Positions 16,871-36,039 of a stretch of 36,039 bases of DNA are shown piece by piece. The stretch comes from Cochliopodium minus (Eukaryota > Discosea > Himatismenida > Cochliopodiidae). The stretch lies in the NCBI GenBank assembly GCA_024220525.1, contig JAMYWO010000020.1, positions 118,614 through 154,652 of the forward strand, written 5' to 3'. Below the pieces are notes generated by a model. The model was given only the letters and a program-made list of their open reading frames with translations. It searched no databases and had not been told where the DNA came from. Every line of letters begins with the position of its first letter. Positions within the stretch are counted from its first letter, which is position 1. Position numbers and translations under genes: made by a program.

Positions 16871-19800
16871 ATGTTGATTGATAAAATTGAAAATAGCAAA
16901 GAAAATATAAAACCTTTAACACAAGGAAGATCAACCTCGATGCTTGAGAAAGTAACTTTGATGGATAAAGATGGGAAAGAAAATTATATCAAAGAGATGA
17001 AAGTGAAAATCGCTAAATGTATCGAAGAAGCTAAAACATCTGAGGATCCATTGAAACCATGGTTATATTATGTTTCTTGGGCAAGACAAATATACACACA
17101 TGAAGTTTCAAAATTATTGGAAGTAATAAAAACATAGATTTTTAAAAATTATGGTTCATAAATCAATATATTTAGATAATTGTGAAAGCATGCTCAGAAT
17201 TTCAATTAGGTAAAAAAATATTTTCATCAAATCAAATCAAAAATAAAATAAAATTGATTTCCTATTTAGATAAGAGATACAAGGATGATAAAAGATATCT
17301 TGAACTATGGCTTGAATATGCATTATATACCAAAAAAACAATGGGTATCTTTGAATTTCTTGCAACCCATGGTATTGGTATAGACAATCCAAGATTCTAC
17401 ATTGCCAAATCAGGTATTTTGGAAGATGGAGAATTCTATAGAGATGCAGATAAGGCTCTCCAAGATGGAATCAACAGAATAACCAATTTGGAAGATAGAA
17501 ACTTATTGAAGATGAATTACAAGCAATTATGCGCAAGAAATGAACAAAGAAAAAAACACCAAGAGGATTCAGATGAATATGAAGCTGTTGATTACAATTA
17601 CAAAAGAAGTGCATTGTCAACAATTGGAAGAAATAGTGAGAATATAGGAATTACCAACAACAAATCAAACTCGAATACAAGTAATAAAAAGAGCGAATTC
17701 GCAATCTTTGAAGATAAAAACTTTGAGACAGAAACAATGTACAATTTTGATTCAAAATCCACATGGGTGGGTGAAGAATTGCAAGAGAAAGAGAATATCA
17801 AGGCACCTAAACAATGGACAGGAAATAAAATCAAGCAGAAGATGCCAATCCAATCCACCCAACCAGATTTTGAGATCTTTGTCGATCAAAACTTCCAGGA
17901 GATAGGATACAAACCATCCAGCCAAACACAAACAATCCAATTGCAAGAGAAAAAAGGATCTGCCAAGAATGTTCAAGATGACGATGAGGAGGATGATGAA
18001 GATGATGAGAATACTGATTCAAGATCAGTATTGCAAAACAGAAATAAAAAAACTACTTTATCCAACAAACCATCTTTTAAACCAACATCCACAACTTCTA
18101 CTACATCATCATCCAAATCCTCATCTAGTTCTTCTTCTTCTTCTAGAAGTAAGCCATCGAGCTCTTCCTCTAACGGAAAGACTTTGAGAGGTCACAACGA
18201 AGAACTTTTGAAGGATGGAGTTTATTCTTTCGAGGAAATCAGAATGAAATACAAGAGAGAAACCATTTTCAGAAGAAGGAGGGTCGAGGCGGAGAGATCT
18301 TTGGAGCAAAAAGAAAGGGAAAGACAAAATTTGATGTTGTTGGAGTTGGAGAAGGAGAAAATGAAGAAGGAGATGGAGATGAAGAGACAAGAAGAGGAGA
18401 TCTTGGAGAGCCAAAAGAGACAAGAAAACAAAAAGAGAGCTTTTGGTGTTCAGGTTGACAAGAAGGAGAAAGAAACTATTGCTCCTGTTATCAAGAAAGA
18501 AAATACTCAGAAGATTGATACAAGGAGGATGAATGAGACTCTTCCTGAGGTCACTGCTACCATCAACTTTAACAACTTTGAGCTTCAGACTGTTTATGAT
18601 GATACCATCAAGATCCAGACCGAGATCTATGATGGATGTGATCTTGAAGAGCCTACCATCAATACCAAGAACGCCTTGAAGCAGTTGAACCTTGTTCTCA
18701 GTGCAAAGGTGGATGGCGAGGATGATCAGACACGTACTTTGAAGAACATCCCTTTCAGCTTCAAGCAAGATAGCACCAACAAGAAGACCAATGGGGAAAT
18801 TGCTCAGGAACTTGGTTTGAAGAAGAGCACACCTAAGATTCAATATGATGATGAGGAAGAAGAGGAGGAAGATGAGAATGATTTGATTGAGAGTTCTGTT
18901 TCTCAGTACACTGGCTTTGGATTGAGCAATAATGTTAATGATGGCGAGGAATTCGAGATTTATCAGGATGATACAGGCACCATCCCTATCCAATTGAACA
19001 CTGTTGCTAATGAGAGTTTTGAAATCTTCAATGATAATGAGAATGAAACAGAGAGACCTTCCACCATCTCCTTAATGAAATCTGAATTCTTTGAAATCGC
19101 CAATGATCGATCTGATTTTGGATCATTTAAAAGCAAGAACAAGATGATGCCTCCTATGACCCCAATCATCGAACAAGATGAGGATGAATCATCCTCCAAC
19201 AAATCCAGCTTCTTTCAAACCACACAAGTCAACATCAACAGATCCTCCATCGTTGAGAAACAACAAGAGAGGAAGTTTCCTCTTGCCAACATCCCTCCTC
19301 CACCTTCCCCTTCTGAATGTAGCTGTCTCAGTGTATTCAAAGATGAACATCAAAAAGAAATCTTCTCCAAGGTTTACATGCAAATAAAAACTAAAGAAGA
19401 AGTCTCCTCCTTCAACGAAAACTCTCCTACCATTGATGATGAAATTGATTTTGGAAACTCCATCTTTAATATCACCCGCAAGTTGAGCGAAGATGGGAGC
19501 AGAGCTACTTACTTGGTTGAAGATGTTTCCAATGTCACCTCTCTTGATGTTGAAAACTTGATCACTTATTACCTGAAAGTTGACAACCCTCCTTGCTTGT
19601 GGGAGTATTACATCTACTCAAAGATGGTCGAAAGATTCAGAAACGAGAAATACCAAAGATATTTCTTGAAGTATCATTCCGTTTATTCTTTCAATGACAA
19701 GTGTTTCATCTTGATGGATTATGACAGAGGTACCTTGGATAATGTGATTGAAGTTTATCAAAAGGCATCCAAGCAGATGGAAGAGATTCTCGTTGCTTTT

Positions 19801-20409
19801 TATTCCATCGAGATGATCAAGGCAATTGAGGCATTGCATTCTTTCGGAATCATCCATGCAAATCTTGATCTTCAATCATTCATGTTGAGATCTACATCTT
19901 CCGTAGAGAAATCATCCTGGGATGCAGATATCGAAGACACCAATTCTTTCTGGTTCAAAACTGGAGTACAACTCATGAACTTTCAAAACTCTATCGATTG
20001 CAATCTTTACCCTTCCAACACCATCTTCCAAGGATCATTGCCTTCCCAATCCAACTTTAAACAGATCTATCCTAACTGGACATTTCACACCGATTTTTAT
20101 GGTCTCGCAAGCAACATCTTCACCCTCTTGTTCCAACAAAAGATGAATGTCATCTTTGATGAACATTCCAACTCTTTTTCTCCCGAGTTCAATTTCCATC
20201 CTTCTTACCAAGTTGATATGTGGAAGTTTGTCTTTAAACAGCTCTTGAACTTCAAATCTTGTTCTGTCTCTCAATTTTCCACTCATTCTGTTCCTTATCT
20301 CGTGAATGTCCGCAAGGTTTTGGAATCATATCTTTCCTGCAAATCCATCTCTTCCAGGCTTTATGAATCTTTCACCAAACAAAACCTTCTTTTGCATGAT
20401 TACTTTTAA
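16871..20409 (+). CDS. MadBub / BUBR1-type spindle assembly checkpoint protein with degenerate kinase domain
   Basis: Two exons (16871-17122 and 17176-20409; 53-base intron) give 1161 residues. KEN1 at residue 10 sits in SKENIKPLTQGRSTSMLEKV, very close to human BUBR1 (SKENVQPLRQGR). The Mad3/BUB1 TPR-like region spans about 55-195 (DPLKPWLYYVSWARQIY, RYLELWLEYALYTKK, FEFLATHGIGIDNPRFYIAK). Next is a cassette of ABBA motif FAIFED (259), KEN2 (289) and ABBA motif FEIFVD (316). A GLEBS-like Bub3-binding motif (DGVYSFEEIRMKYKRE) lies near 431, followed by a charged coiled coil. A CDI-like motif (EPTINTKNALKQLNLVL) lies near 575. Two more ABBA-like motifs, FEIYQD and FEIFND, are near 677 and 699. 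Residues about 837-1161 are a Bub1-type kinase fold keeping the Lys (YYLKVDNPPCLWEYYI) but with HGD changed to HAN, its Lys and Asn lost, and DFG changed to NFQ. It should inhibit APC/C-Cdc20 and bind Bub3 at kinetochores; phosphotransfer is unlikely. Confidence 0.94.
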
Positions 20410-22130: not shown

Positions 22131-25100
22131 TCAAAAGATTCTTATAGATCCAGTGGAATCAACAGAAACAAGTAGATCTATCTCTGATCCCAAATTAAAG
22201 AAAGAACCTGATGTAAAAATGTCTTGAGGAGGTTCATAAATGAAACCAGATCTATTTATTTTGTTTTGGATTAAAAAAAGATAAAAAATTAAATAAAAAT
22301 CAATTAAAATGAAATAAATAAAATTACTCTAATGATGCTTCTTTTGTTTTTTCATCTATCAACCATAGAGAAAGTGAAGGAATTCCAAAGGTGATGAATG
22401 ACGAAGAAGATGAAGACACCGAAAACTGACCAATAGATTTTTGTTGGGGATCAGAAAACTTGGAGAAGCAGGATTTAGTTCTGTTATCATATATTCTTAT
22501 TTCTCCATCACCATAACTTTTTGTTTTAAATAAAATTAATAAAATAAATAAATAAAATAAAAAAAGAAAAAATAAATTAAATAAAAATAAAAAATAAAAA
22601 AAATAAAATAAATAAATAAAAATAAAAAATAAAAAATAAAAAGAAAAAAATAAGATGAATTTTTTTACCCAAACATTATTGTTTCAGGTCTCACGCTTGT
22701 ATGGCAAAAAAGTTCCATTTTTTTGGTGTTGATTACGTTGCAAGGAGAGTTTGATTTCATTCTGACATCAAAGGACTTGAAGAATCCGTCGTCAGTAGTA
22801 CAGTTCAAAATATTAGGATCTATGTAAAAGTAAAAATAATAAATAAGAAAATAAAAAAATAAATTTATAAATAAAACAATTTTGATAAATAAAAATAAAT
22901 AAATAAAATAAATAAAAAATAAAAAATAAATAAAATAAAAATAAAAATAAAAAAAAAAATAATAAATAATAAATAAAAAATAAAAAATAAATAAAATAAA
23001 ATAAAAATAAAAATAAAAATAAATAAATAAAATAAATAAAAAATAATAAATAATAAATAAAAAATAAAAAATAAATTTTGATAAATAAAATAAATTTGAT
23101 AAATTTTATAAAAAAAAATAAATAAAAAAAAAAAAATATAACCATATTGACTGAAAGATAAAGATGAAACAACATTATCACATAAGTAAAGGGAGTTTGT
23201 TGCTTTGCTTTTAGTATTGTTGAGCTGTTCTATTTCGGTGACGTACACTTTGCAGTCGAAACCGCCGCTTGCCAGGAGGGTTTTGTAGGGAGATATTGCT
23301 ATTTCTCTGATGTCGTCCACATGCATCTTTGAAAATTGGTCTTTTTTTTAACAGTAAAAAAATTTAAAAAAATGTAAAAAATAAAAATAAATAAAAAAAT
23401 ATATTAAATAAAAAAATGAAATAAACAAAAATAAATAAAAAATTGGAAAAAAAATTATCTAAGTAAATAAAATTAAAATTAAAATTAAATAAATAAAAAA
23501 TAGAAATAAAATAAAAACAAAATAATAAAAAAATAAAAATAAAAAATAAAATAAAAATAATTTTGATAACAAAATTAATTGTAAAAAAATTTAAAAAAAA
23601 AATATTTAAAATAATTTTTTTTACTGTTATGGAGAGAGAAGATGGAAAACTCGTTTTCTAAAAAGCTGCACATTCCCATGTTTGACCCAGAAGCGTAAAT
23701 CACCCGGCTGTTGTCTAGCCACTTCACATCCCTCACCATTTCTCCCACTGGGAAAAGGAAGCATCCATCGTCCTCACTAATTTGGACAAATAATCATTTA
23801 TTTTTTATTGATTTTTTATTTATTTTGAATTTTTTTTTGAATTATTTTTTATTTTTTATTTTTGAATATTTTTTTTTTGAATTATTTTTTATTTTTTATT
23901 TTTGAATATTTTTTATTTTTGAATATTTTTTTGAATATTTTTTTTTTTATTTTTTTTTTTATTTGATTCTTATTTTTTTCATCTTAATTTTTGAATCATT
24001 TTTTGGATTTTCTGATAAATTATTTTTAAAATTATTTTTTTATTTTATTTTATTTTATTTTTTGAATTATTTTATTTTGACTGTTACCCTTTGATGTCTA
24101 AATTGTTTTTGTCGACTCTGGTTATTTTTCCGAACATAAGAAAATTGTTTCCCTCATCTCCTGTCCCCGAACAAAAAGAGCCGTTCTTGTCTGTGAATGA
24201 AATGCAAGAAAGGGAGAATTTGCCTAATTAAAAATAAATAAATAAACAATAAAAAAAATAATAAATAATAAATAAACAAAATAGTAATAATAAAATAATA
24301 AAATAATAAATAATAAATAATAAAAAAAAATATAAAATGATAAATGACAAATAATAAGTAAAAATAATTCTTAAAAATAAAAAATAAATAAACAAATAAA
24401 CAATGAAATAAGTAATAAATAAATAAAGTAATTGAAAAATATGATTGAAGTGTTTTTTAAAAAATGTTTTCTTTTTACTTTTAGAAAAATTTTTGTATCT
24501 GTTAGCCAAAAGTATGTTCATGTCCTTATCAAAGATGGGCAACTAAAAAAATTTTTTTTTAAAAAAAAATGATAAGGAATATTAAAAATATTGATTGACC
24601 AAATGAAATTAGACTAAATGAAATTTTGACGAAATGATTTTTTTTTTATTTTATTTTTTAATTTTTTAATTTATAATTTTTTTATTTTACCATTGTCCCT
24701 TTCTTCGCCATTGATACTGTGATATTTTTGGAAGATGGAGTGATGGGATTGGATTTGTCGTTGGGATTGAGTGAGGGCGAGAGGGGATCGATCCCATAAT
24801 AATCGAATCTCATCAAATTGTTGTTGTCTCCATGATCCAGAGGGTTAGATGAGGATAATGGATTGGGAGTGTAATTATTATTATTATTGTTGCTGTTGTT
24901 ATTGGTATTATGACTGTTATTGCTGCTGCTATATCTTAGATAGTCGATATTATTATTATTGCTGTTGTTGTTGTTATTGTTGGGTGTATTCATTTTTGGA
25001 GGATATTCAGTTGGATAATGCGCTATATTGTTGAAATCAAACGATTTGGTGAGCTCTGGGAACAGATGATGGTTATTATGTGTTGCATTCGTCGATAATA

Positions 25101-25592
25101 CATCTGAGGTGAACTCTGTCAACGTTTCAAATGCTGTGCTGAAGGGTTGGCTTCCAGGTGACTCGAATGGATCGAAATATTTTGATGAGATATTGGGTGA
25201 ATTGAGATCAAATCTTCTATTGTGATTATTGATGTTGCTATTGTTATTGCTATCCATCCTATTTTTATTTGTTATATATTTTTTTTTCTCTGTATTTATT
25301 TTGTGAGGCGGATTATTTTTATTCGCTGATATTTTCTTTCTATTCTTGATATCCTTTATTTCCAAATCTCTAGGTATCAAATTGAAATTGGATTGATTGT
25401 TGTTTTTCAAATTAATCTTCAAATTGTTTTGATAGTATATGCTTTGAATAAAGGATGAGAAAATAAAAAATTATTTGTATTATCTTACCTAAATTCTGAT
25501 CCACTATTAATTGAATTATAATCAAGGTCCATTTCGTTATTATTTGTAACATTGGTTAAAAAATCCCATAAATCTGTGTTTTCGTCCAACAT
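22131..25592 (-). CDS. Asn-rich WD40-repeat protein, about nine exons
   Basis: The start MLDENTDLWDFLTNVTNNNE is at 25592; exon 2 (25441-24691) is long. Further exons lie near 24544-24480, 24226-24082, 23777-23625, 23341-23146, 22818-22672, 22517-22327 and 22235-22131 (TGA 22131-22133). Boundaries of the middle exons are approximate. Residues 1-285 are Asn/Ser/Pro-rich, with runs of Asn around 24875-24985. The remainder shows beta-propeller blades: FSLSCISFTDKNGSFCSGTG, EMVRDVKWLDNSRVIYASGS, HVDDIREIAISPYKTLLASG with GFDCKVYV, NILNCTTDDGFFKSFDVRM, YGDGEIRIYDNRTKSCF and EIDLLVSVDSTGSIRIF at the end. Six or seven blades fit. It should be a scaffold. The subfamily is not recognisable, though HxxxI..I..SP..LLASGGFD recalls TSSC1/EIPR1- and PEX7-like propellers. 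Introns are made of AAAT-type microsatellite. Confidence 0.72.
22840..23140. repeat. AAAT/AAAAT microsatellite filling a WD40-gene intron
   Basis: The roughly 325-base intron between the exons near 23341-23146 and 22818-22672 is almost entirely irregular AAAT, AAATAAAT and AAAAAT units on the plus strand (T-rich on the coding strand). Similar arrays fill 22530-22650, 23345-23610, 23790-24070 and 24230-24460 in the neighbouring introns of the same gene. The open frames of Phe/Leu/Ile/Tyr seen here are artefacts of the repeat. Confidence 0.85.
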
Positions 25593-25861
25593 TATTATTT
25601 GTTTTTTTTTTGTTTTTTTTTGTTTTATTTAAAAATATTTGGTCATTCTTTCAAAAATGTCATTCTTCCAAATAAATTTAACCTGACCTTGCTCCAGAAA
25701 AATATTGTATCAAATTTTTTGCCTTATAATTTAGGAGGACTTCATTTTTTTTTTTTAATTTTTTTTTAAAGTGTCTTTTGAATTATTAAAAGGAAAAAAA
25801 TTTTAAACAAATAAAAAAAAAGAGTAATTGCAGATCAGAAGAGATTTTATTAGGATCATTC

Positions 25862-27224
25862 TCAGAAAAAGTTTTCATCTTCAAAAGGATTAAAAAAATT
25901 TTCAAACAATGAAACTTCTGGAGTTAACTGGAGGTCAAAAAGATCTTGTTGGTTAAAATGAGTGTCAAGTGGAAAATTTTCACTGTGAAATTTTGAATGA
26001 TTTAATAAATTTTCAAAAGAAATATCTTCAAAACTCGAAGAATCTGTACTAGTTTGCTCCAAAATTGAATTTTCGATCATTAAAGGTTCACTTATTTTAG
26101 AATGAGATCTCTTTCTTTTGTCAGTTGGGACAGTTGCTGGGTAAGAATTAATTTTTGAAATCCCATTTTGATCAACTTTCAAATTGGGATTGTTTTCGAT
26201 GTTATGGCAGAAAAGATTGAAAGGAAGATCATCAATCAAGTTATTCCTCAAATGAAGATAACAAATACTTAAACATTTTTTGTGTGCAAATCCAGTTCCT
26301 TCCTTAAAAGAAAAGATGTCACTTCCACCAAGAACAGAATTTAAACAAATAGAGCAATTAAAAGATGAAGAATTTAATTCGAAATCTTCTTTTAATTTTT
26401 CGAGATCATCTTCCCCAAATGTTAAATTAATTTGTTTTTGAAAGAATAATCTTCTCAAAATAAATTTCTTAATTTTTTTTTAAAAAAAAGATAAGTTAAC
26501 AATAAAAATTAAATTAGTTTGATGTTTTACTAAATGCTCACAAGGAAGAAAATTTCCGCAAGAACAGTAAACCATTTTTCCCAATATAAGGTTAAATATT
26601 ACATCTTGGTGGAAAACGGAAAAATGTCTTTCTGATTGATTAGATTCAAAAAAGTTGGTTGAAAGAAGAAGGAAATCCTATAAAAATTAATTAATCCAAA
26701 AGAATTAAAAAAAATCATTAAAAACACAAAGTTCTATTACCTCCTTTATTGGTGGTTTAACGAAATTATTTATTTTCAATGTTGGTATTGATTGTTCTTT
26801 TGGTGTAGTTTTGGCTTTGAAATATTTTAGGTCCTTCATAGAATAAATGTTCGCCCTGCATTCTTCAAGGGTTTGGATATCAGATATTATTTTATCCACT
26901 TTGTCGGTTTTTGTTAATTCTAACTTTAACAAATTGATGTTATTTTCATAGCTCTTGATCTGCACAAATGATATTTATTTTTTTAGATTTAATGTTAGGT
27001 TAAGAAATTTCGAATTTAATTTCGATCCAAAAATTTTAAAATTTTACCTTCCTACATGGCCACCTTGATATTCCATATTGCCTGCATAATTTCTTCATAT
27101 TTGTCGGACAAATACCCAGATCCTTTGCTGCTAATTTTAATGGCAAATGGAAAAGATTTTTTAATTTGTTAAGTCCTTCTTCATCAATTCTCTTTTCTTT
27201 GATTCTTCTTTTTTTTGCCAACAT
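25862..27224 (-). CDS. RWP-RK / coiled-coil / SWIM-like / C2HC protein, family copy 1
   Basis: Exons 27224-27048, 26959-26741, 26677-26531 and 26467-25862 join in phase to 382 residues. Residues 16-59 are an RWP-RK DNA-binding domain (LKNLFHLPLKLAAKDLGICP, KKLCRQYGISRWPCRK). Exon 2 is a coiled coil (YENNINLLKLELTKTDKVDK). Exon 3 has LLLSTNFFESNQSERHF followed by a SWIM-like finger, CSCGNFLPCEH (C-x-C-x5-C-x-H). Exon 4 opens KFILRRLFFQKQ and then has a C2HC finger with spacing C-x2-C-x20-H-x2-C (CSICLNSVLGG, FAHKKC). The tail is acidic and Ser/Phe/Asp-rich, ending FENFFNPFEDENFF, which could be an activation domain. RWP-RK proteins are transcription factors in plants (NLP, MINUSCULE/RKD) and occur in some protists. 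The added finger set is new to me. Intron phases match those of the other copies. Confidence 0.85.
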
Positions 27225-28248
27225 TCAAGAGCACAAATTTTAGCCAAGTTTTTTTTTTTTTTTTTTTTGATCAAAAAATAAATTATTTGAAGAATAAAGA
27301 ATTCAAACATTTATGTCAGGGAATATTCTCAAAATTAATGTTTCAAGAAAGTAGTGGATTCCATTGTTTCTAATTTTACAAGTTCCATGAAAGATTTGAT
27401 TTATTATTTATCATTTCGCAAAATGAATTTTCATTTTTTTCAATATGTCAAGTTTATTTATTTTCATAAATGAATTAACTTGAGAAAATGAATTATGTTT
27501 CTTAATCAATATTCTAATTGTTGATAAATTCAATTTCAATCCTTTTTGATAATTTGTTATTTTTTTCTATGAATGTGGTGGTCCCACTTCTTGGGAAAAA
27601 ATTCATTTGTATCAAAAAGCACAAGTGGTTTTTTCAAACTTTTTCTAATATATACTGTATATAAATATCTTTTAAATCCCACTAATAAAATTTTAAATTT
27701 AATTTTCAAATCAATAGTAAAAGAATATTCTTATTGATTATTGAAGAATTTTTTATTCATAATTAAAATTTAAAGGATACCTTTAATCAAAAGCAATTGT
27801 TTATTAAAAATTACAAGATGATCTTTTTTTAAAAAATTGTTTTGGTTCTTTTTTTGTTTTGTATTCGTTTTTTTTATTTTATATTGAACTTATTAATATT
27901 TAATTGACAGAAAAAATAAAATTAAATTCATATTGTCAAATATTGAAAAGGTCTGTCATAAAAGTAAAAAAAAATATTATAACAATGAAAAAAAAAAATA
28001 CTTTTTGATTTGATATGATTGATGATCATTTCGATGGAGAAAATTTAATCTCCAATTCTTGTTTTTAATTTATATATATTTTTTTTTTTCAGATGTTTCC
28101 TTTTGGATATTAAAAAAATATTTAGAATTTGAAGAAAAGAACTTCTTTTTGAGTTGTTTTTTGGTTTTTAATCTATCTTTCTTTCATATCATTACAAAAT
28201 AAGATATATAAAAAATAATAAAAATAATAAAAATATTAATAAAAAAAA
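27225..28248. other. Divergent intergenic region, no gene seen
   Basis: One kilobase of AT-rich DNA lies between the ATG of RWP-RK copy 1 (minus) and the ATG of the secreted DRP-repeat gene (plus), so it carries two promoters. Poly-T tracts flank both starts. The last 60 bases before 28249 are A-rich (AATAAAAATAATAAA type), as expected for a leader here. No small gene or RNA was recognised. Confidence 0.55.
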
Positions 28249-29137
28249 ATGAAAATTTTTCTTGTAGCTATTCTACTTTTAATTGCATTTGCATATGCAG
28301 ATAGAACTGAAAGATCAGAAAGAAGAGCAGTACTTGTATACTATTCTGATGACAAATGTAGACACATCGAAGGTATCGCAGGAACATTCGTCTCCAATGC
28401 TCAAAGATCCATCCAAAGCGCAAACAGAGGAACATGCAGACAACAATTGGCATGTATCCATAACGAAGCATCCGAAGATTGCCACGAAGTAAGAAATTAT
28501 GGAGCTAATGTTTTGCTTTCATTCAATCTCGATAAAAATTCCTTCCTCAGCATCAGAAATAATGGAGCACCTGTAAACCAAACATACGAAACATGCTATG
28601 CTAGTTCCCTTTTTGCTGGATGCCACTTTCAACTCTTTAAAGAACGTCAAGCATTGAGAAGATTTGATGATGATGAATGTAATATTTCATAATTATAAGA
28701 ATCATAAAACTTTTAACTCTTTTGAGAACTTGGATATCCATCAAATTTAAATTTTATAATAATTTATATTCATAAAATTATTAGGGCATCATGGAAACAA
28801 TCATTATGACAATGATCACAATGATAGACCAGACAGACCACATGGTGATAGACCAGATTATGATAGACCTGAAAGACCTGAAGGTAACAGACCAGATTAT
28901 GATAGACCTGAAAGACCAAACAGACCAGATTATGATAGACCAGAAGGACCACATGGTGATAGACCAGATAGACCAAACGGTGACAGACCAGATTATGATA
29001 GACCTGAAAGACCAGAAGGTAACAGACCAGATGGTGACAGAGATTATGATCGTGAAAAACAAGAAAAACCAATTCCAAAAGATGGATGGGATTGGGATAA
29101 AAAAAGATCTCTCGGAAGATCCGCTGAACAAAAATAA
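28249..29137 (+). CDS. Secreted Cys-rich protein with DRP/DYDRPE repeat tail
   Basis: Exons 28249-28678 and 28785-29137 join in phase (TG|G) to 260 residues. Residues 1-17, MKIFLVAILLLIAFAYA, are a clear signal peptide. Residues about 25-140 form a compact domain with six Cys (VLVYYSDDKCRHIEGIAGTF, CRQQLACIHNEASEDCHEV, YETCYASSLFAGCHF), probably disulphide-bonded. Exon 2 opens with a His/Asn/Asp stretch (HHGNNHYDNDHND). It then encodes about ten Arg-Pro-centred units of the kind DRPDYDRPERPEGNRPDYD, ending KDGWDWDKKRSLGRSAEQK. The reading frame of the repeat is set by the splice; the other two frames (MIDQ-type on plus, FRSIIIWS-type on minus) are shadows. The highly charged, proline-periodic tail suggests an extended extracellular or cell-wall/spore-coat segment. 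Function unknown. It interrupts the RWP-RK array on the opposite strand and is convergent with copy 2 (88 bases apart). Confidence 0.8.
28826..29040 (+). repeat. Short tandem coding repeat (DRPDYDRPERPEGN type)
   Basis: In-frame repeats of about 18-45 bases, built from GATAGACCAGATTATGATAG and GACCTGAAAGACC-like words, encode alternating Asp-Arg-Pro and Glu-Arg-Pro units. Copies differ by a few bases, including GGT/CAT and AAC/GAT swaps, so the array is not freshly expanded. It could still vary in copy number between strains. Confidence 0.85.
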
Positions 29138-29225
29138 ATAAAATTAGAATTTAATTCGATTTGATCTGTATTAGTTTGTTTGCCTTGTTTTTGTATCCAT
29201 TGTTTTAATAAGAAGTTTTTTAATT

Positions 29226-30559
29226 TCAAATCAGATCTTTTTCAATTGTTTCTGACCTCAATTTTTTGCTCACTTCATCTGAGCAAATATCAGAATCTGC
29301 AGTGATCTCCTTTCTTTTGTTGTTTGAAAGAAAGTTTTCTTGATGAATGTTTCCAGAGATGGAATCATTATTTGGAGCCTCAATTTCGTTTCGATAGAAA
29401 GTATCGATAAGCAAATCTTCTTGTGCTGTATTCTCTGAAGAAACATGATTATTGTATTCTTGTTCTTCGATGAGTGTGTTCCCATCGATTACTTTGAAGA
29501 TGGAGTTTTGGAGGTACTGTTTATATTCCAGGGTCTCACTTTTATTCACTGTGATTGCTATTGTCATTGAATCAAAACATTCTTTGTGAGTGTAGTTTCC
29601 CACTTGATGAAAATGGAACACCTTTTTATTTCCTGTGACTTTCTTGTTGCAAAATGAGCAATTAAATGCTTCCATATTTTCTTGATAGATCTCTTTTAAA
29701 CGTTGCAACACTTCAGTTTTGTAGGAATCATATATAATGTTTTGATGGAAGAGTCTTTTGAATTATGAAACTCTATATTTTGATGTTTATTGGATATATA
29801 ATTGATATCACAAAGATTATGATAGATTTTTACCTTATGTATGCATTTAAAATTGATATCATCACAATCACATTCTATTTTTGTTCCAATCTTCACCTTG
29901 TAAAATTTAAAATCGTGCATCACTTCAAATTCTCTTTCTTCCGCATTTGATTCAAAGAAATTGGTTCCATATAAAAGCACCTTTCAAAATTTATTCCATT
30001 TTTATATAATTTTTCATAGATCAAAAAAAGAAAACTTGTTTACCCCATCAACACAAATTGATTTTATGTAGTGTCTCATTATTTTTGAAGACTTGGTATT
30101 AATTATTATTTTTTTGCTTGAATCTATATTGATATTTTTTTTTTCAAGATTTGAGCCATCAAAAGCACCACTGATCACCAATTGAATCTGTTCTTCTAAA
30201 TTTTTCTTGATCTTTTCAATTTTGACAATTTCTTCTTCATTTTTGCAACTTTTAATTTTGCTTTCACATTCTTCTATTTTCTTATTGAGACCACCCAACT
30301 GATAAAGTAATAAACAATTTAATCTTTAATAGATTCTTTTAAAGGATACCTTTCTGTGAGGCCATCTATCTATTAAAAAATTTCTGCAAATATTTTTGAA
30401 ATGTGATGGGCTTATTCCACACTCTTGAGCTGCAGATTTGATTGGAAGGTGGAATAAGCTGATGAGTTTTTCTCTTGTAACCCTAATTAAAAAAAAACTT
30501 TAATAATAATTTTACGAATTAATTTTAAAAAGGTACTCAATTTTCACTTTCTTTGGCAT
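29226..30559 (-). CDS. RWP-RK / coiled-coil / SWIM-like / C2HC protein, family copy 2 (frame problem before last exon)
   Basis: Exons 30559-30537, 30482-30350, 30298-30044, 29980-29834 and about 29755-29226. Start MPKKVKIEVTREKLISLFHL; RWP-RK core HLPIKSAAQECGISPSHFKN and ICRNFLIDRWPHRK. A coiled coil follows (LGGLNKKIEECESKIKSCKN). Then YGTNFFESNAEEREFEV and a SWIM-like finger, CDCDDINFKCIH (C-x-C-x6-C-x-H). The last exon carries LFHQNIIYDSYKTEV, the C2HC finger (CSFCNKKVTGNKKVFHF, YTHKECFD) and an acidic/basic tail ending KKLRSETIEKDLI. Between the donor at 29833 and LFHQ the sequence after the expected acceptor (ATATAG) has 22 bases where copies 1 and 3 have 21, so the frame does not carry through. 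Either an unusual acceptor is used, the assembly has a one-base error, or this copy is decaying. Confidence 0.75.
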
Positions 30560-30673
30560 TTCTCTTTGAATAATCTTTTAATCAATTTTTTATTTTATTT
30601 TTTAGAAACAATTATTCACAACATAATAATAAAATAATCAAATTTTTTTATTTCACAAAATATTAATCACTAT

Positions 30674-33600
30674 CTATTGGGGATTATCTTTTTTTTTGTA
30701 GTATCTTTTTTCCATTGAATCAATTTCGTTTTCGGAGTCACTATCCGCTAAATATTTAAGGATTTTGATGATATGGGTTTTAGAGATATCTGATTCACCA
30801 ATTGCCTCAATTAGCTTTTTTCCTATTATTCCCTTCTTCAAATTTTTCTTTTTGGATCTCTTGTTTGAATCTTTTTCTTTGCCAGAACAAGTCATCTTTC
30901 TTTTTCTCATGGATGATCCATCATCTTGATCAAGCGAAAAGTCATAAAGTGGTAGATTTATAGTTCTATTTTTTTTGATCTTTTTTTTGGGTTCTTTTAG
31001 TTTTTTGTTTTTGTTGATTATTTCAACTTCACTGCTCAAGTCTTCTTCTTCAAACAATTGTTTGGTTACCTTAGTAGAATGTTCTTCAGAAGAGTCGACA
31101 TCCTCACTCATTTCATCTTTGTCATCCACATCTTGCTTTTCATCCAATGGATCTTCAATGATGATCTTGGATAATTTTTTTCTTTTGTTCGATGATATTT
31201 GATCTTTAGAAACAATTTCAGAAGAGTTCTTTTTGTTCTTTTTTTGAGGAAAGACTTTGTCTCTCAACCCATTTTTGTCTAAATAATCATAAAGAATTTG
31301 ATAATTTGCGATTTGTCTCTTCTTGAACCATTTCTCTTTGTTTACTCCTTCCTCGTTCACTGTTGAATAAAAAGAATAAGTTGATCCACAGCACTTGTGA
31401 TTGATAATATTTCCCACAATAACTTGTCCCTTTCTGAGAACTATTTGTGGTTCATCTTGATCTTCGTCAACTTTTTCTTTTTGTTTTCTTTTGGTAGATT
31501 TAACAGAAGACTGTTCTTCCATCAAGGAGGTAGCATCAGTCATTCTTGAATTTTCGTTTTCCCCAAAAAGGTTTACTTCTTCAGCAATCTTCTTTCCCTT
31601 AGAGGAGACCCTCATTTCCTTTCTGTTCGTTGATATTTGATCTTGTGAAACAATTTCAGAAGAGTTGTTCTTGTTGTTCTTGTTCTTTTTTTGAGGAAAG
31701 ACTTTGTCTCTCAACCCATTTTTGTCTAAATAATCATAAAGAAGTTTTACGTTCGCGATTTGTCTCTTCTTGAACCATTTCTCTTTGTTTACTCCTTCCT
31801 CGTTCACTGTCGAATAAAAAGAGTAAGTGGATCCACAGCACTTGTGATTGATAATATTTTCCACAATCACTTGTCCCTTTCTGAGAACTATTTGTGGTTC
31901 ATCTTGATCTTCATCTTCATCTTCATGAATTTTTTCTTTTTGTTTTGTTTTTGCTTTTTTAGGAGATTTCCTATTGTTTTTAATCAAAGTTTCAAGTGTA
32001 TCTGATTCGTCCTCTTCGATCTCATTTAATTTCTTAGACTTTACAGGAGATGGTGATGAGCTTATTTCTTCTCCAAAATCATCTCCCAAATCTTGATTCT
32101 CATGTTCATCCTGACTTACGTCCTTGTCATTAGAGGAAATTGGAGATAATTTTTTCTTTCTGTTCGTTGATATTTGATCTTGAGAAACAATTTCAGAGGA
32201 GTTGTTCTTGTTCTTTTTGTTCTTATTTTGAGGAAAAACTTTGTCTCTCAACCCATTTTTGTCTAAATAATCATAAAGAAGTTTTACGTTTGCGATTTGT
32301 CTCTTCTTGAACCATTTCTCCTTGTTTACTCCTTCCTCGTTCACTGTTGAATAAAAAGAATAAGTGGATCCACAAACTTTATGATCCAAAATCTTATCCA
32401 CGATCACTTGTCCCTTTTTGAGAACCATTTGTGGTTCATCTTTATCTTCATCTTCATCAACTTTTTCTTTTTGTTTTCTTTTGGTAGATTTAACAGGAGA
32501 CCGTTCTTCCATCAAGGAGGTAGCATCAGTCATTCTTGTATTTTCATTTTCCCCAAAAAAGTTTACTTCTTCTTCAACCCTCTTTCCCTTTGAGATTCTT
32601 GTTTCCTTTCTTTTCGATGTTACTTGATCTTGAGAAACAATTTCAGAGGAGTTGTTCTTTTTGTTCTTTTTGTTCTTATTTTGAGGAAAAACTTTGTCTC
32701 TCAACCCATTTTTGTCTAAATAATCATAAAGAAGTTTTACGTTTGCGATTTGTCTCTTCTTGAACCATTTCTCTTTGTTTACTCCTTCCTCGTTCACTGT
32801 TGAATAAAAAGAGTAAGTGGATCCACAGCACTTGTGAAAGATAATATTTTCCACAATAACTTGTCCCTTTCTGAGAACTATTTGTGGTTCATCTTTATCT
32901 TTATCTTCATCAACTTTTTGTTTTTGTTTTGTTTTTCCTTTTTTAATCAAAGTTTCAAGTGTATCTGATTCGTCTTCATCAATCTCTTCGATCTCAGTTG
33001 GTTTTTTAGATTTTCCGGGAGATAAAGTGGAAGAAGAAGAATTGTGAGTGAAAGTTTGCTCTTTAACAGAATGTGAATGAGGAGCATTAGTTTCGTCAGG
33101 AAAAGTTTGGTCCATGTCTACTTCAACTCTTGAATTTTGGGTCTCTTTGGATATAATATCATCTACTTTTTGTACATTTTCAATCATTCCTTGAGAAGAT
33201 TCGATTGGTATGATCACTTCAGAAGAGAAATGTGGAAGTTCAATACTCTCTTTGGGAGATATGGAGTTCACATTGGAAATAACAATACTTTCTGAATGTA
33301 CTTTTTCTTGTTGTAATAATTCATCTTGTTCGAAATTCTTCTCATCTCCCTTTTTCCGATCTTGTATCACCTCATGACATTCTGTTGGAAGATTGTCCAA
33401 GGAAGATGAACAAAAAGAAGATTCAAAAGTAATAGAAGGATCGCATACACTATTATCGATAGGTTTATTTGAATCAATGAAAAAGGATAGATTAGTTAAT
33501 TGTTCAGAGAGTGCCTCTGTATCAACGCCAGTTGGTTCATGAAAAACAGTTTGTCTTGACAGTTCTTCGCTTGTTTCTTTTTTTGTAGCATTTAGTGGGT

Positions 33601-35120
33601 AGTGATCAATATCCAAGTTCAAAGGGAGCTCTATTGGAGGAGTATCATCATCAAAAAGGATATTGTCCATAAAGCAATCTTCTTGATCAACGTATTGTAT
33701 GTCATTCTCTGGATTGAGATTCTCATCAGTAAGAGTTTCTAAAACAAAGTTTTCTTGAAGAGAAAGAGCTTCTCCATCGATCACTTCGTAATCAGAATTT
33801 TGAAGGTAATATTGGTACTCTATTGTGTCACTTTTATTCAAAGTTATTGCGATCATCGCTGTTTCGAAGCATTCTTTGTGTGCGAAGCTTCCAAATTTTG
33901 GGAAATAGAACACTCTTTTGCTTCCTGTCACTCTTTTGTAGCACAATGAACAATCATGAGGATCTGAATTTTGTAATTTTATCTTTTTTAAATTCTCTAT
34001 TTCTTCAAGACCATAGGAAAATAAAATAGTATCTTGATGGAAGATCGTGTTGAAAATGAATTTCTATATTTTGTTTAGATTTTGATTGAAATTAGAAATT
34101 TGTTTCTAGCTATTGATAATTGTTTTTAATCTAAGATACTATATTATTGTTCTTATTTTATCATTTGATCTTATTATAGATCATTTTTACAAACAAATTT
34201 TTCATTATATGAAACAGATATTAAAATAAAAGTGAACTTTACCTTATGAATACAATTAAAGATTTCTTTACACTCGCATTCTATTTTCGATCCAATTATC
34301 ACCTTGTAAAAATTATTATTTTGGATGACAAAGAATTCCCTATCCACATCATTTGAATCAAAGAAATTTGTTCCATATAAGAGTACCTATTTTAAATATT
34401 TATTCAATATTAATTTTTTTTATTTATAGTAAAAGTGAATTTACCAAATTGGAGTATTTGGATTTGTATGTTGTCATTGTGGCCTCTTTTGGATTTTTGG
34501 TTTTATTTATTGCTTCTCCATTTTTGATTGAAAGATTTTTTGTCTTATTGATAGGTGAAGGATTTTCTTCAATTTGTTTAATTGAAGGAATGACCAATTT
34601 ATTTGTTGAAGATTCATGATTTTCTTCAATTTGATCCTTTTTTTTTTTATGATTGCCGCTATTGTTCAATATCTTATCCAAATTGGACTCATCAAAGGAT
34701 TTCTCAATGATATCTTTGATTTCTTCTTCACAATCACTGATATACTTCAATATGAAGGATCTTTGATTCTCTTCACAAGATAAGAGGGTAACTTTATATT
34801 GTGAAATTTTCAATTCTATAGCTTTCAACTATATATCCATTCAACAAAAAAAAAACAACATAAAATATAAAAATTTTTTATATTTTATATTTTTATCTTT
34901 GATGGTTTACCTTCCTGTGAGGCCATCTTGGAATATAAAAGCCTCTGCACAATTTTTTAAAAATAGTTGGACAAACCCCAAGCTCCCTTGATGCTTGTTT
35001 GAGTGGAAAGGAGAATAGGCTGATCATTTTTTCTTTTGTGACACTTTCAAAAATGTTTAAATAGAATTATTAATTGATAGATTTAATTTATTACTTATCG
35101 ACTATGTTTTTAATAGACAT
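30674..35120 (-). CDS. RWP-RK / SWIM-like / C2HC protein with four chromodomain-like repeats, family copy 3
   Basis: Exons 35120-35095, 35043-34911, 34828-34445, 34386-34243 and 34063-30674 join in phase to 1358 residues. Residues 1-53: MSIKNIVDNVTKEKMISLFS, RWP-RK core FPLKQASRELGVCPTIFKKL and RGFYIPRWPHRK. Residues 54-181 are a coiled coil plus a Lys/Asn-rich linker. Residues 182-229: YGTNFFDSNDVDREFFV and a SWIM-like finger, CECKEIFNCIH. Residues about 230-300: FIFNTIFHQDTILFSYG and the C2HC finger (CSLCYKRVTGSKRVFYF, FAHKECFE). The long last exon then adds an acidic stretch and four near-identical modules near residues 620, 770, 950 and 1102. Each reads KGQVIVENIINHKCCGSTYS, then FYSTVNEEGVNKEKWFKKRQ, then IANVKLLYDYLDKNGLRDKV. 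The modules are joined by Lys/Glu/Asp-rich linkers with NLS-like clusters (KRKQKEK, KNKKNKKN). The tail is basic. Predicted nuclear DNA-binding protein; the modules resemble chromodomains in pattern only. Confidence 0.88.
31244..31458 (-). repeat. Chromo-like module 4 (C-terminal-most)
   Basis: About 215 bases. It differs from the others at IANYQILYDYLDKNG, where copies 1-3 have IANVKLL; otherwise almost the same protein sequence. Its flanking linker (KKNSSEIVSKDQISSNKRKK) is also a variant of the linkers after copies 1-3, so the amplified unit is longer than the folded module. Confidence 0.9.
31691..31903 (-). repeat. Chromo-like module 3
   Basis: About 213 bases. Protein identical to copy 1 across the stretch GSTYSFYSTVNEEGVNKEKW and on to the end of DKNGLRDKVFPQ. 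The following linker (EEVNLFGENENSRMTDATSL, MEEQSSVKSTKRKQKEKVDE) closely matches the linker after copy 1 rather than that after copy 2. This implies duplication in blocks of two modules or gene conversion. Confidence 0.9.
32228..32440 (-). repeat. Chromo-like module 2
   Basis: About 213 bases. The most divergent at its start (KGQVIVDKILDHKVCGSTYS, with KVC for KCC), where it looks most like a classic chromodomain opening (V-x-x-I-L-x-H). From YSFYSTVNEEG onward it is the same as copies 1 and 3. Confidence 0.9.
32681..32893 (-). repeat. Chromo-like module 1 (N-terminal-most)
   Basis: About 213 bases, encoding IVLRKGQVIVENIIFHKCCG and the shared core to DKVFPQ. Distances between equivalent bases of neighbouring modules are 447, 537 and 453. 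The 447 and 453 spacings share linker type (FGENEN, MTDATSLMEE), while the 537 one does not. Confidence 0.9.
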
Positions 35121-35599
35121 TTCCTCAAATTTTTTTTTTTTTGAATAACTCTGACGTATTAAATTTTCTCATGAATTATGAATCAAGAATCATTTAATTT
35201 GAAATTGAAAGTAGAATATAAATCATCTTTAATTTTAATTTTAATTTTAATTTTGTCAAAGTGTATAATCAAAAGGTTTTTTTCTTAAAAAAAAAAATAA
35301 AAAAATATACCAAAGTAAAAGATTATACATTGAACTCAATAACTTGAATATTAAAGAACATCCTACTTATTGAGGATGTATAAAAATATACTTGATGGTC
35401 ATAAAAAAAGGCTTAAAAAGTAGAACTATGGTTCTTAAAATTTTCTTGTTAATTAACATCAATCAATAGAGGCCTTTCTATTTTGAGCAAATATATTTTT
35501 CTTCCAAAAATATAAAAATAATATAAACAATTAACAGAAAGTTTAAAATAGTTTTTATTTATTAAAAAAAACCGATGATACAAATTAAAATAAGGTACT
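35121..35599. other. Intergenic between RWP-RK copies 3 and 4, with a short AATTTT array
   Basis: Promoter-side spacer of copy 3 and 3' side of copy 4. It holds about four and a half AATTTT units at 35229-35254 and otherwise plain AT-rich sequence. No open frame or RNA-like structure was recognised. Confidence 0.55.
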
Positions 35600-36039
35600 T
35601 TAAGAATCTAAACTTCTGTTCTTTGTATCATTTTTATTGTAACTTGAGCTCCTATTCTTTATCTTTTTATTTTTGACCTCAACAATGATGTTTGGATCAG
35701 AGTTGATCCTTTTATTATTTTTATTAGAGGTGAGATTCTCAGTATCTAGTAGAGAAAGGGATCGTCCATCTACAAGATTATAATACATTTGTTTAAGATA
35801 TTGCTGGTACTCCTTTGTTTGGCTCTTTTTTAGAGTCAGTGCTGCTATCACGTTATCAAAGCATTCTTTGTGCGTGTAGCTGCCGAATTTCGGGAAATAA
35901 AATATTTTTTTGATTCCAATCACACTGTGATAGCACATTGAGCAATCAAGGGTATTTGTTTGTTCTATGTGGTAGTATTTCAAAATTTCCATTTGATCAA
36001 TATCATATGAGCGGGAGATAATATCTTGATGGAAGATTG
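35600..36039 (-). CDS. C-terminal part of RWP-RK / SWIM / C2HC family copy 4 (runs off right edge)
   Basis: The frame is open from the right edge to a TAA at 35600-35602 and encodes IFHQDIISRSYDIDQMEILK, then the C2HC finger (CSMCYHSVIGIKKIFYF, YTHKECFDN; C-x2-C-x20-H-x2-C). The family segment after the finger follows (ALTLKKSQTKEYQQYL, YNLVDGRSLSL), then a short basic tail ending RSSSYNKNDTKNRSLDS. IFHQD marks the start of the last exon in the other copies, so the upstream RWP-RK, coiled-coil and SWIM-like exons should lie just beyond 36039. The tail is short, without the chromo-like modules of copy 3. The internal ATG at 35992 is not the start. Confidence 0.8.
   Translation of the reverse strand, partial: IFHQDIISRSYDIDQMEILKYYHIEQTNTLDCSMCYHSVIGIKKIFYFPKFGSYTHKECFDNVIAALTLKKSQTKEYQQYLKQMYYNLVDGRSLSLLDTENLTSNKNNKRINSDPNIIVEVKNKKIKNRSSSYNKNDTKNRSLDS

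Follow-up and report, generated by a model that had tools for sequence, protein, structure and literature searches.

RWP-RK domains extend beyond plants and have been reported from slime molds, stramenopiles and Naegleria fowleri. Few extra domains are noted on RWP-RK proteins in the part of PMC7399023 on which we draw, namely NRD and PB1 in the NLPs and, as one extra domain among oomycete members, Myb in one group. In the AT-rich, 44.65 Mb genome of Cochliopodium minus, profile searching revealed a small, mostly tandem gene family in which an RWP-RK domain is combined with a SWIM-like unit and a C2HC finger. With the plant NLP and RKD proteins, and with stramenopile and amoebozoan RWP-RK factors, this family shares the RWP-RK domain followed by a charged stretch, and it differs from these in lacking a PB1 match in the parts scanned and in the SWIM unit and finger that follow. 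We found no description of such a family in the literature searched, in Pfam, in NCBIfam (one protein) or in scans of viral and prokaryote sequences, with eukaryotic protein databases lying outside the scope of the search. As pointers to affinity, eIF2-alpha was uninformative, SAHH had 6uk3 and 5v96 (the latter from Naegleria fowleri) as its two best PDB matches, and Anaeramoeba ignava seemed improbable, its genome having 80.65% A+T (PMC11550330) against 61-80% in the 2-kb bins of the window.

The window, by which we mean the whole analysed stretch of 36,039 nucleotides (A+T content 61-80% in 2-kb bins), carries three genes, c1 to c3, with exons in the order RWP-RK, helical, SWIM and finger, together with part of a fourth, c4. 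Their features are:

25862..27224, minus strand: c1, four exons (27224-27048, 26959-26741, 26677-26531, 26467-25862)
27042..27173, minus strand: RWP-RK match of c1, overrunning the exon end at 27048 by 6 bases
26531..26677, minus strand: SWIM exon of c1, C-x-C-x5-C-x-H
25862..26467, minus strand: finger and tail exon of c1, C-x2-C-x20-H-x2-C
29226..30559, minus strand: c2, exons 30559-30537, 30482-30350, 30298-30044, 29980-29834 and a finger exon extending to 29226
30347..30481, minus strand: RWP-RK domain of c2
29834..29980, minus strand: SWIM exon of c2
29454..29753, minus strand: finger region of c2, in its own open frame
30674..35120, minus strand: c3, exons 35120-35095, 35043-34911, 34828-34445, 34386-34243 and 34063-30674
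34905..35045, minus strand: RWP-RK domain of c3
34243..34386, minus strand: SWIM exon of c3
33764..34063, minus strand: finger region of c3
32675..32890, minus strand: chromo-like repeat 1 of the c3 tail
32222..32437, minus strand: chromo-like repeat 2 of the c3 tail
31685..31900, minus strand: chromo-like repeat 3 of the c3 tail
31238..31453, minus strand: chromo-like repeat 4 of the c3 tail
35600..36037, minus strand: c4, last exon only (finger and tail)

The predicted proteins comprise 382 amino acids for c1 (RWP-RK, SWIM, C2HC finger and a short tail) and 1358 for c3. An earlier sequence-only reading had proposed at least four minus-strand genes built from the same parts, the first three complete and the fourth partly visible. 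All three domains are carried by c1 to c3, with c1 and c3 complete, and c4 is indeed represented by its last exon. The claim of completeness failed for c2, whose finger exon does not continue the reading frame in the assembly; no GT-AG pair restores an open frame, and the one GC-AG pair that opens it deletes the SWIM cysteines. A search to the right for the remainder of c4, suggested at the same time, ended at a run of 3365 N that starts at the right edge of the window, contains the 5' part of c4 and may be an assembly gap. Searching the genome for more copies was productive, yielding a fifth copy on a separate contig (C254) and a sixth gene on contig C24 with SWIM unit and finger and no RWP-RK match. 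The family is thus tandem for c1 to c4, by local duplication, with further members elsewhere.

The gene models, whose 5' exons were picked by eye, carry GT-AG introns of 50-179 nt. At four loci (c1, c2, c3 and C254) the exon order is the same and the three donors from RWP-RK through finger are in phase 0, in agreement with the shared phases first noticed in the window; c2, c3 and C254 have an extra 5' intron in phase 2, and c1 instead begins at an ATG within the RWP-RK exon. We considered whether the joining could be a gene-model artefact, with RWP-RK and finger exons deriving from separate neighbouring genes. The joined models derive from the genome sequence alone, a SWIM-finger module stands without RWP-RK on C24, and c2 fails to join in frame; set against this are the recurrence of one exon order across four loci at these intron lengths, the phase 0 donors at all three junctions, and the models of c1, c3 and C254, which are open from ATG to stop as that of c2 is not. 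An artefact consequently seems to us very improbable, and a single gene family that arose by local duplication, with common introns and diverging tails, is supported; the earlier proposal of regulators with diverging tails likewise finds support, as likely regulators. Comparisons covering c2, c3 and c4, and leaving out c1 and C254, gave dN/dS values of 0.37 for RWP-RK, 0.25 for SWIM and 0.21 and 0.33 for the finger (dS was undefined in the fifth, the c2-c4 finger), and these four values of 0.21-0.37 support the view that the protein sequence of the three genes is held by selection. The helical exon had been described as a coiled coil. In a simple heptad test its a/d content was reached by 1098, 1193, 1206 and 1446 of 2000 shuffles in the four copies, no better than shuffles, and the assignment was dropped.

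The RWP-RK domain was found by genome search in all three copies whose 5' part lies in the window, with 72.1 (c1), 62.5 (c2) and 65.6 (c3) bits, and the Pfam profile gave 71.9, 60.3 and 63.6 bits, respectively, on the predicted proteins; with the C254 copy included, the scores span 60.3-74.9 bits and all pass the cut-off of 29.3 bits. PB1, a mark of the NLP subfamily, was not detected in the Pfam scan of the parts submitted (for C254, the first 319 of 634 residues), and the 23 PB1 matches of the genome all lie elsewhere, none over the family genes. A sub-threshold HTH_AraC match on the RWP-RK domain of c2 (Pfam E 0.0018) was discounted, and a search for a solved RWP-RK structure with a single query found none. 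When the RWP-RK alignment was run against prokaryote genomes, none of 70 pattern matches was confirmed, and in viral contigs neither of the two pattern matches to family relatives, obtained with one query, was confirmed.

The SWIM exon carries a TNFF...R.F motif, and the spacing C-x-C-x5/6-C-x-H occurs in all five copies that could be read, which upholds the original designation as SWIM-like. The Pfam SWIM profile reaches c1 below threshold (12.1 bits against a cut-off of 19.6) and one of seven profile rows at E 0.014, and gives no match in C254, c2, c3 or C24; the two genes listed by a genome-wide search for the SWIM family are both outside this one. The closest structural candidate was the SWIM-RING tandem of MEKK1 (MAP3K1; 9p40), an idea set down prior to both profile searches. 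With a seven-row profile of SWIM plus finger (A6), 9p40 ranked first of six PDB matches, weakly (E 0.05). The stretch reported for this match was confined to the SWIM part, and the second and fourth places went to caspases, which are surely unrelated (E 0.13 and 0.34); when the C24 row was removed, 9p40 fell to fourth of 11 (E 0.7). The MEKK1 SWIM piece, its boundaries set from the match itself, outscored 2000 of 2000 shuffles, and 1998 of 2000 when C and H were fixed. A direct MEKK1 query of the genome listed five places, none in the family. MEKK1 and the family have in common the SWIM spacing C-x-C-x5-C-x-H with a hydrophobic stretch beyond it, and then C-x2-C and H-x2-C at near-equal spacing (20 residues in the family, 21 in MEKK1), whereas the gap from SWIM to finger is 38 residues in the family and 61 in MEKK1, and the family lacks the second RING zinc site, possesses RWP-RK and gave no kinase match in Pfam scans. 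In sequence, therefore, the SWIM unit weakly resembles that of MEKK1.

The second finger, C-x2-C-x20-H-x2-C, was confirmed in six of six copies. It directly follows the SWIM unit in all five genes that show both (in c2 out of frame), at a constant distance of 38 residues in the four joined copies. Its earlier description as half-LIM-like was abandoned, with no LIM family among the matches in Pfam scans. RING and PHD domains have eight ligands for two zinc sites, of which only C-x2-C and H-x2-C are conserved here. Half a RING is our preferred reading and a plausible one, but the finger by itself is ambiguous. The RCHY1 RING was matched across the full span from C-x2-C to H-x2-C, ranking third in the PDB with A6 and second with the finger-only profile (A3). 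A tenable alternative, to which we give appreciable though lesser weight, is an independent C2HC treble-clef-like finger (DUF2175-, C1- or half-LIM-like) that binds protein or nucleic acid, the remainder of the interpretation being unchanged. It gains from the finger-only profile, whose 16 PDB matches mix ribosomal L43, the RCHY1 RING, protein kinase C and ZNRF1, none significant and MEKK1 not among them, and from the MEKK1 RING piece, whose score was equalled or exceeded in 86 of 2000 shuffles, a number that rose to 318 of 2000 when C and H were kept in place. Among Pfam families, the c2 finger is best matched by the archaeal DUF2175 (PF09943; E 0.0018, 18.9 bits), which also occurs in two of four finger rows (best E 0.019) and one of seven SWIM plus finger rows (E 0.42), but remains under its cut-off of 25.1 bits and is absent from the other two finger rows. 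By comparison, zf-RING_11 matched a single finger row (E 0.17). The position of the finger immediately behind a MEKK1-like SWIM unit, the constant distance between them and the near-equal ligand spacing argue rather for the half-RING.

Built on what the sequences show of exon order, intron phase, motif spacing and similarity, the explanation that we favour, with a probability of roughly 0.52, is that these are lineage-specific RWP-RK transcription factors carrying a MEKK1-related docking unit of SWIM and a one-zinc finger. The N-terminal RWP-RK domain would bind DNA. SWIM and finger would together make up a single docking module, akin to the SWIM-RING tandem, the finger presumably having kept the first-site ligands (C-x2-C ... 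H-x2-C) of a C4HC3-type RING/PHD and lost those of the second site. With the first site kept and the second lost in this way, the unit would most likely engage a partner or some component of the ubiquitin pathway and have no ligase activity of its own, and the diverging tails may give each copy a separate output. Were the module instead an active ubiquitin ligase, the proteins would be DNA-bound E3 ligases. In five of six copies the second cysteine is directly preceded by L, M, I or F (by A in C24), and in our own alignment this residue falls on Ile440 of MEKK1, reported as having been mutated to break E2 binding; four conserved ligands for a second zinc are missing, however, with one further C four residues past H-x2-C confined to c1, C254 and C24, and we judge ligase activity improbable. 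If the docking interpretation holds, the fusion of RWP-RK to a signalling-type module would couple DNA binding with a partner or with the ubiquitin pathway.

The tail of c3 holds four near-identical chromo-like repeats that the sequence-only reading did not mention. Seven genome matches to the repeat were obtained, four being c3 itself and three lying on contigs C7 (E 9.7e-9), C4 (8.5e-8) and C5 (0.076), where they adjoin integrase or chromodomain sequence of retroelements; the scores between the c3 repeat and each of these three were reached by none of 2000 shuffles. There is no clear resemblance to the first chromodomain of C4, whose score was reached by 158 of 2000 shuffles. Pfam Chromo does not match the c3 tail or a single repeat, nor is c3 among the 11 genome-wide Chromo listings, and a single repeat gave no PDB match at E 10. 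A profile that mixes the repeat with its relatives (A5) listed the chromodomains of CBX5 first and of CBX1 third among five matches (E 0.43 and 0.48), and these matches rest partly on the retroelements that supply three of its five rows. The residues of the aromatic cage for methyl-lysine are not evident in the c3 repeat when CBX alignments are inspected by eye. Sub-threshold Pfam matches were set aside, namely PF22745 and PB2 on the c3 tail and, at E 0.0024, ECT2_PH in the sequence from C5. The likeness to HP1/CBX chromodomains and to the integrase tails of chromodomain retroelements thus lies in the A5 matches and in relatives adjoining integrase H2C2 and Chromo domains, and the difference in the presence of four copies within one host gene lacking a Pfam Chromo match.

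We suggest that the c3 tail acquired a domain that also occurs at the ends of retroelement integrases in the same genome, capture having probably proceeded in that direction, and that its multiplication to four probably produced a chromatin or protein tether. A more far-reaching proposal, which we hold only tentatively and think somewhat unlikely as a whole, is a new class of transcription factor combining RWP-RK with a MEKK1-like SWIM/pseudo-RING docking unit, one member of which bears a domesticated retroelement chromo-like tether in four copies. If the capture is correct, c3 would clearly exemplify how a regulator can recruit a chromo-like domain from a transposon.

The window (G000:C20:118614-154652) is part of a eukaryotic assembly of 44.65 Mb (598 contigs); in it, gene models with short, AT-rich GT-AG introns were built for three tandem copies:

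c1, minus strand, 4 exons, 382 aa
c2, minus strand, 5 exons
c3, minus strand, 5 exons, 1358 aa

In each, an RWP-RK exon is followed by a charged stretch, a SWIM exon and a finger exon, and a fifth copy on contig C254 (634 aa) matches the window copies in exon order and phases, in agreement with the shared part order and intron phases proposed in the sequence-only reading. SWIM-finger searches of the genome yielded a sixth gene, on contig C24, carrying SWIM and finger; nothing on that contig was among the matches listed by the genome-wide RWP-RK search. The earlier statement that copies 1–3 are seen in full holds for the exon models of c1 and c3 but not for c2, where the finger exon, as assembled, is out of frame with the preceding exons. 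When GT-AG and GC-AG splice pairs (at least 30 nt) were tried, no GT-AG pair gave an open frame to the finger exon and a single GC-AG pair left the frame open at the cost of the SWIM cysteines; c2 is therefore a broken gene, misassembled or differently spliced. Copy 4 is readable in its last exon alone, as had been claimed, because an N-run of 3365 bases (L017 1654-5018) begins exactly at the right edge of the window and covers its 5' part, and the proposed rightward scan for the remainder ended in this run, which may be an assembly gap.

Comparisons of coding sequence took in c2, c3 and c4. For c2-c3, dN/dS was 0.37 for RWP-RK, 0.25 for SWIM and 0.21 for the finger; the finger gave 0.33 for c3-c4, and for c2-c4 dS was undefined.

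That the first finger is SWIM-like, as originally suggested, is borne out by the spacing C-x-C-x5/6-C-x-H in five of five copies read and by comparisons with the SWIM-RING unit of MEKK1, an idea (MEKK1/ZSWIM2) set down before any profile search. A SWIM plus finger profile placed the MEKK1 SWIM and RING structure, 9p40, fourth of 11 PDB sequences (E 0.7), with 13.3 bits in the SWIM part, 2.0 bits in the RING part and the same order in both. After addition of the C24 row, 9p40 came first of six (E 0.05), with the in-register alignment limited to the SWIM part and caspase sequences at ranks two and four. The score of the MEKK1 SWIM piece was reached by 0/2000 shuffles (2/2000 with C and H fixed), whereas that of the RING piece was reached by 86/2000 (318/2000), such that the SWIM part stands out from shuffles and the RING part does not. 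When the genome was searched with MEKK1 as a single-sequence query, five places were listed, none of them a member of the SWIM-finger family. The MEKK1 domain limits and E2-contact residues used were taken from PMC13072407 and PMC4356348, respectively.

The second finger keeps the spacing C-x2-C-x20-H-x2-C in six of six copies. A finger-only profile yielded 16 PDB sequences, none significant, including ribosomal L43, the RCHY1 RING (E 0.11), protein kinase C chains and ZNRF1; MEKK1 was not among them. The best Pfam match of the c2 finger (29454-29753, minus strand) was the archaeal DUF2175, covering nearly the whole profile at E 0.0018, below the cut-off, and two of four finger rows matched this family. 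On position and ligand spacing we would prefer a RING-derived finger, its ligands presumably allotted to zinc sites as is general for the RING fold. SWIM homology of the first finger is thus fairly firm, and a RING origin of the second a preference.

The c3 tail carries four repeats of 72 aa each, spaced by 453, 537 and 447 nt; identity to the repeat placed first in the alignment is 89, 97 and 94% for the remaining three, and dN/dS ranges from 0.17 to 0.43 over the six pairs. A single repeat had no PDB match at E 10 and a Pfam scan of the tail did not call Chromo; a profile of two c3 and three retroelement rows listed CBX5 first and CBX1 third of five PDB sequences, both non-significant. Within the genome a repeat had seven matches, the four in c3 and others on contigs C7 (E 9.7e-9), C4 (E 8.5e-8) and C5 (E 0.076). 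These lie downstream of an integrase H2C2 domain (69 bits), of a Pfam Chromo domain in a different frame, and of integrase-like and GPY/F-like sequence (judged by eye only), respectively, a domain order which we would label Ty3/gypsy-like. All three score against the c3 repeat above 2000/2000 shuffles; the score of the first chromodomain of C4 was reached by 158/2000. The simplest reading would be that c3 acquired the second, chromo-like domain of a retroelement, and transfer from c3 to a retroelement is also conceivable. In the retroelement-like loci (L060 and L062-L064) a second chromo-like domain comes after integrase or chromodomain sequence, the two being in different frames in C4.

The genome search gave at least 19 RWP-RK matches, four of those listed belonging to the SWIM-finger family (c1, c2, c3 and C254). 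The other 15 constitute a second class, with lower scores (25-32.6 bits), on ten contigs:

C95, C145, C74 (five matches), C162, C374, C157, C41, C593, C102, C304

SWIM-finger searches of the genome listed nothing at these 15 sites. Mean RWP-RK identity, for all four family and 8 of the 15 second-class domains, is about 60% inside each class as against 29% across classes. At least 23 PB1-domain matches also occur genome-wide.

By analogy with relatives, the RWP-RK domain of the family would bind DNA and the SWIM unit may serve docking. Yin et al. (PMC7399023) give 14 RWP-RK proteins across eight amoebozoan species, and RWP-RK as the sole domain in nearly all members from oomycetes and in most of the other non-NLP proteins; PMC8296547 and PMC8040595 record an up-regulated RWP-RK factor in Naegleria fowleri. 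No description of RWP-RK joined to SWIM was found in the literature searched, and the claim that no such family has been described extends as far as that literature, eukaryotic protein databases lying outside the search.

Other genes in the window include:

24682-25600, minus strand, asparagine-rich gene immediately downstream of c1, with no Pfam match in the stretch 24685-25470
17176-20409, plus strand, Mad3/BUB1-type gene whose kinase match stays below threshold
28243-29141, plus strand, gene lying between c1 and c2; its start resembles a signal peptide, it contains a D-R-P-rich repeat region, and its first open stretch has no Pfam match
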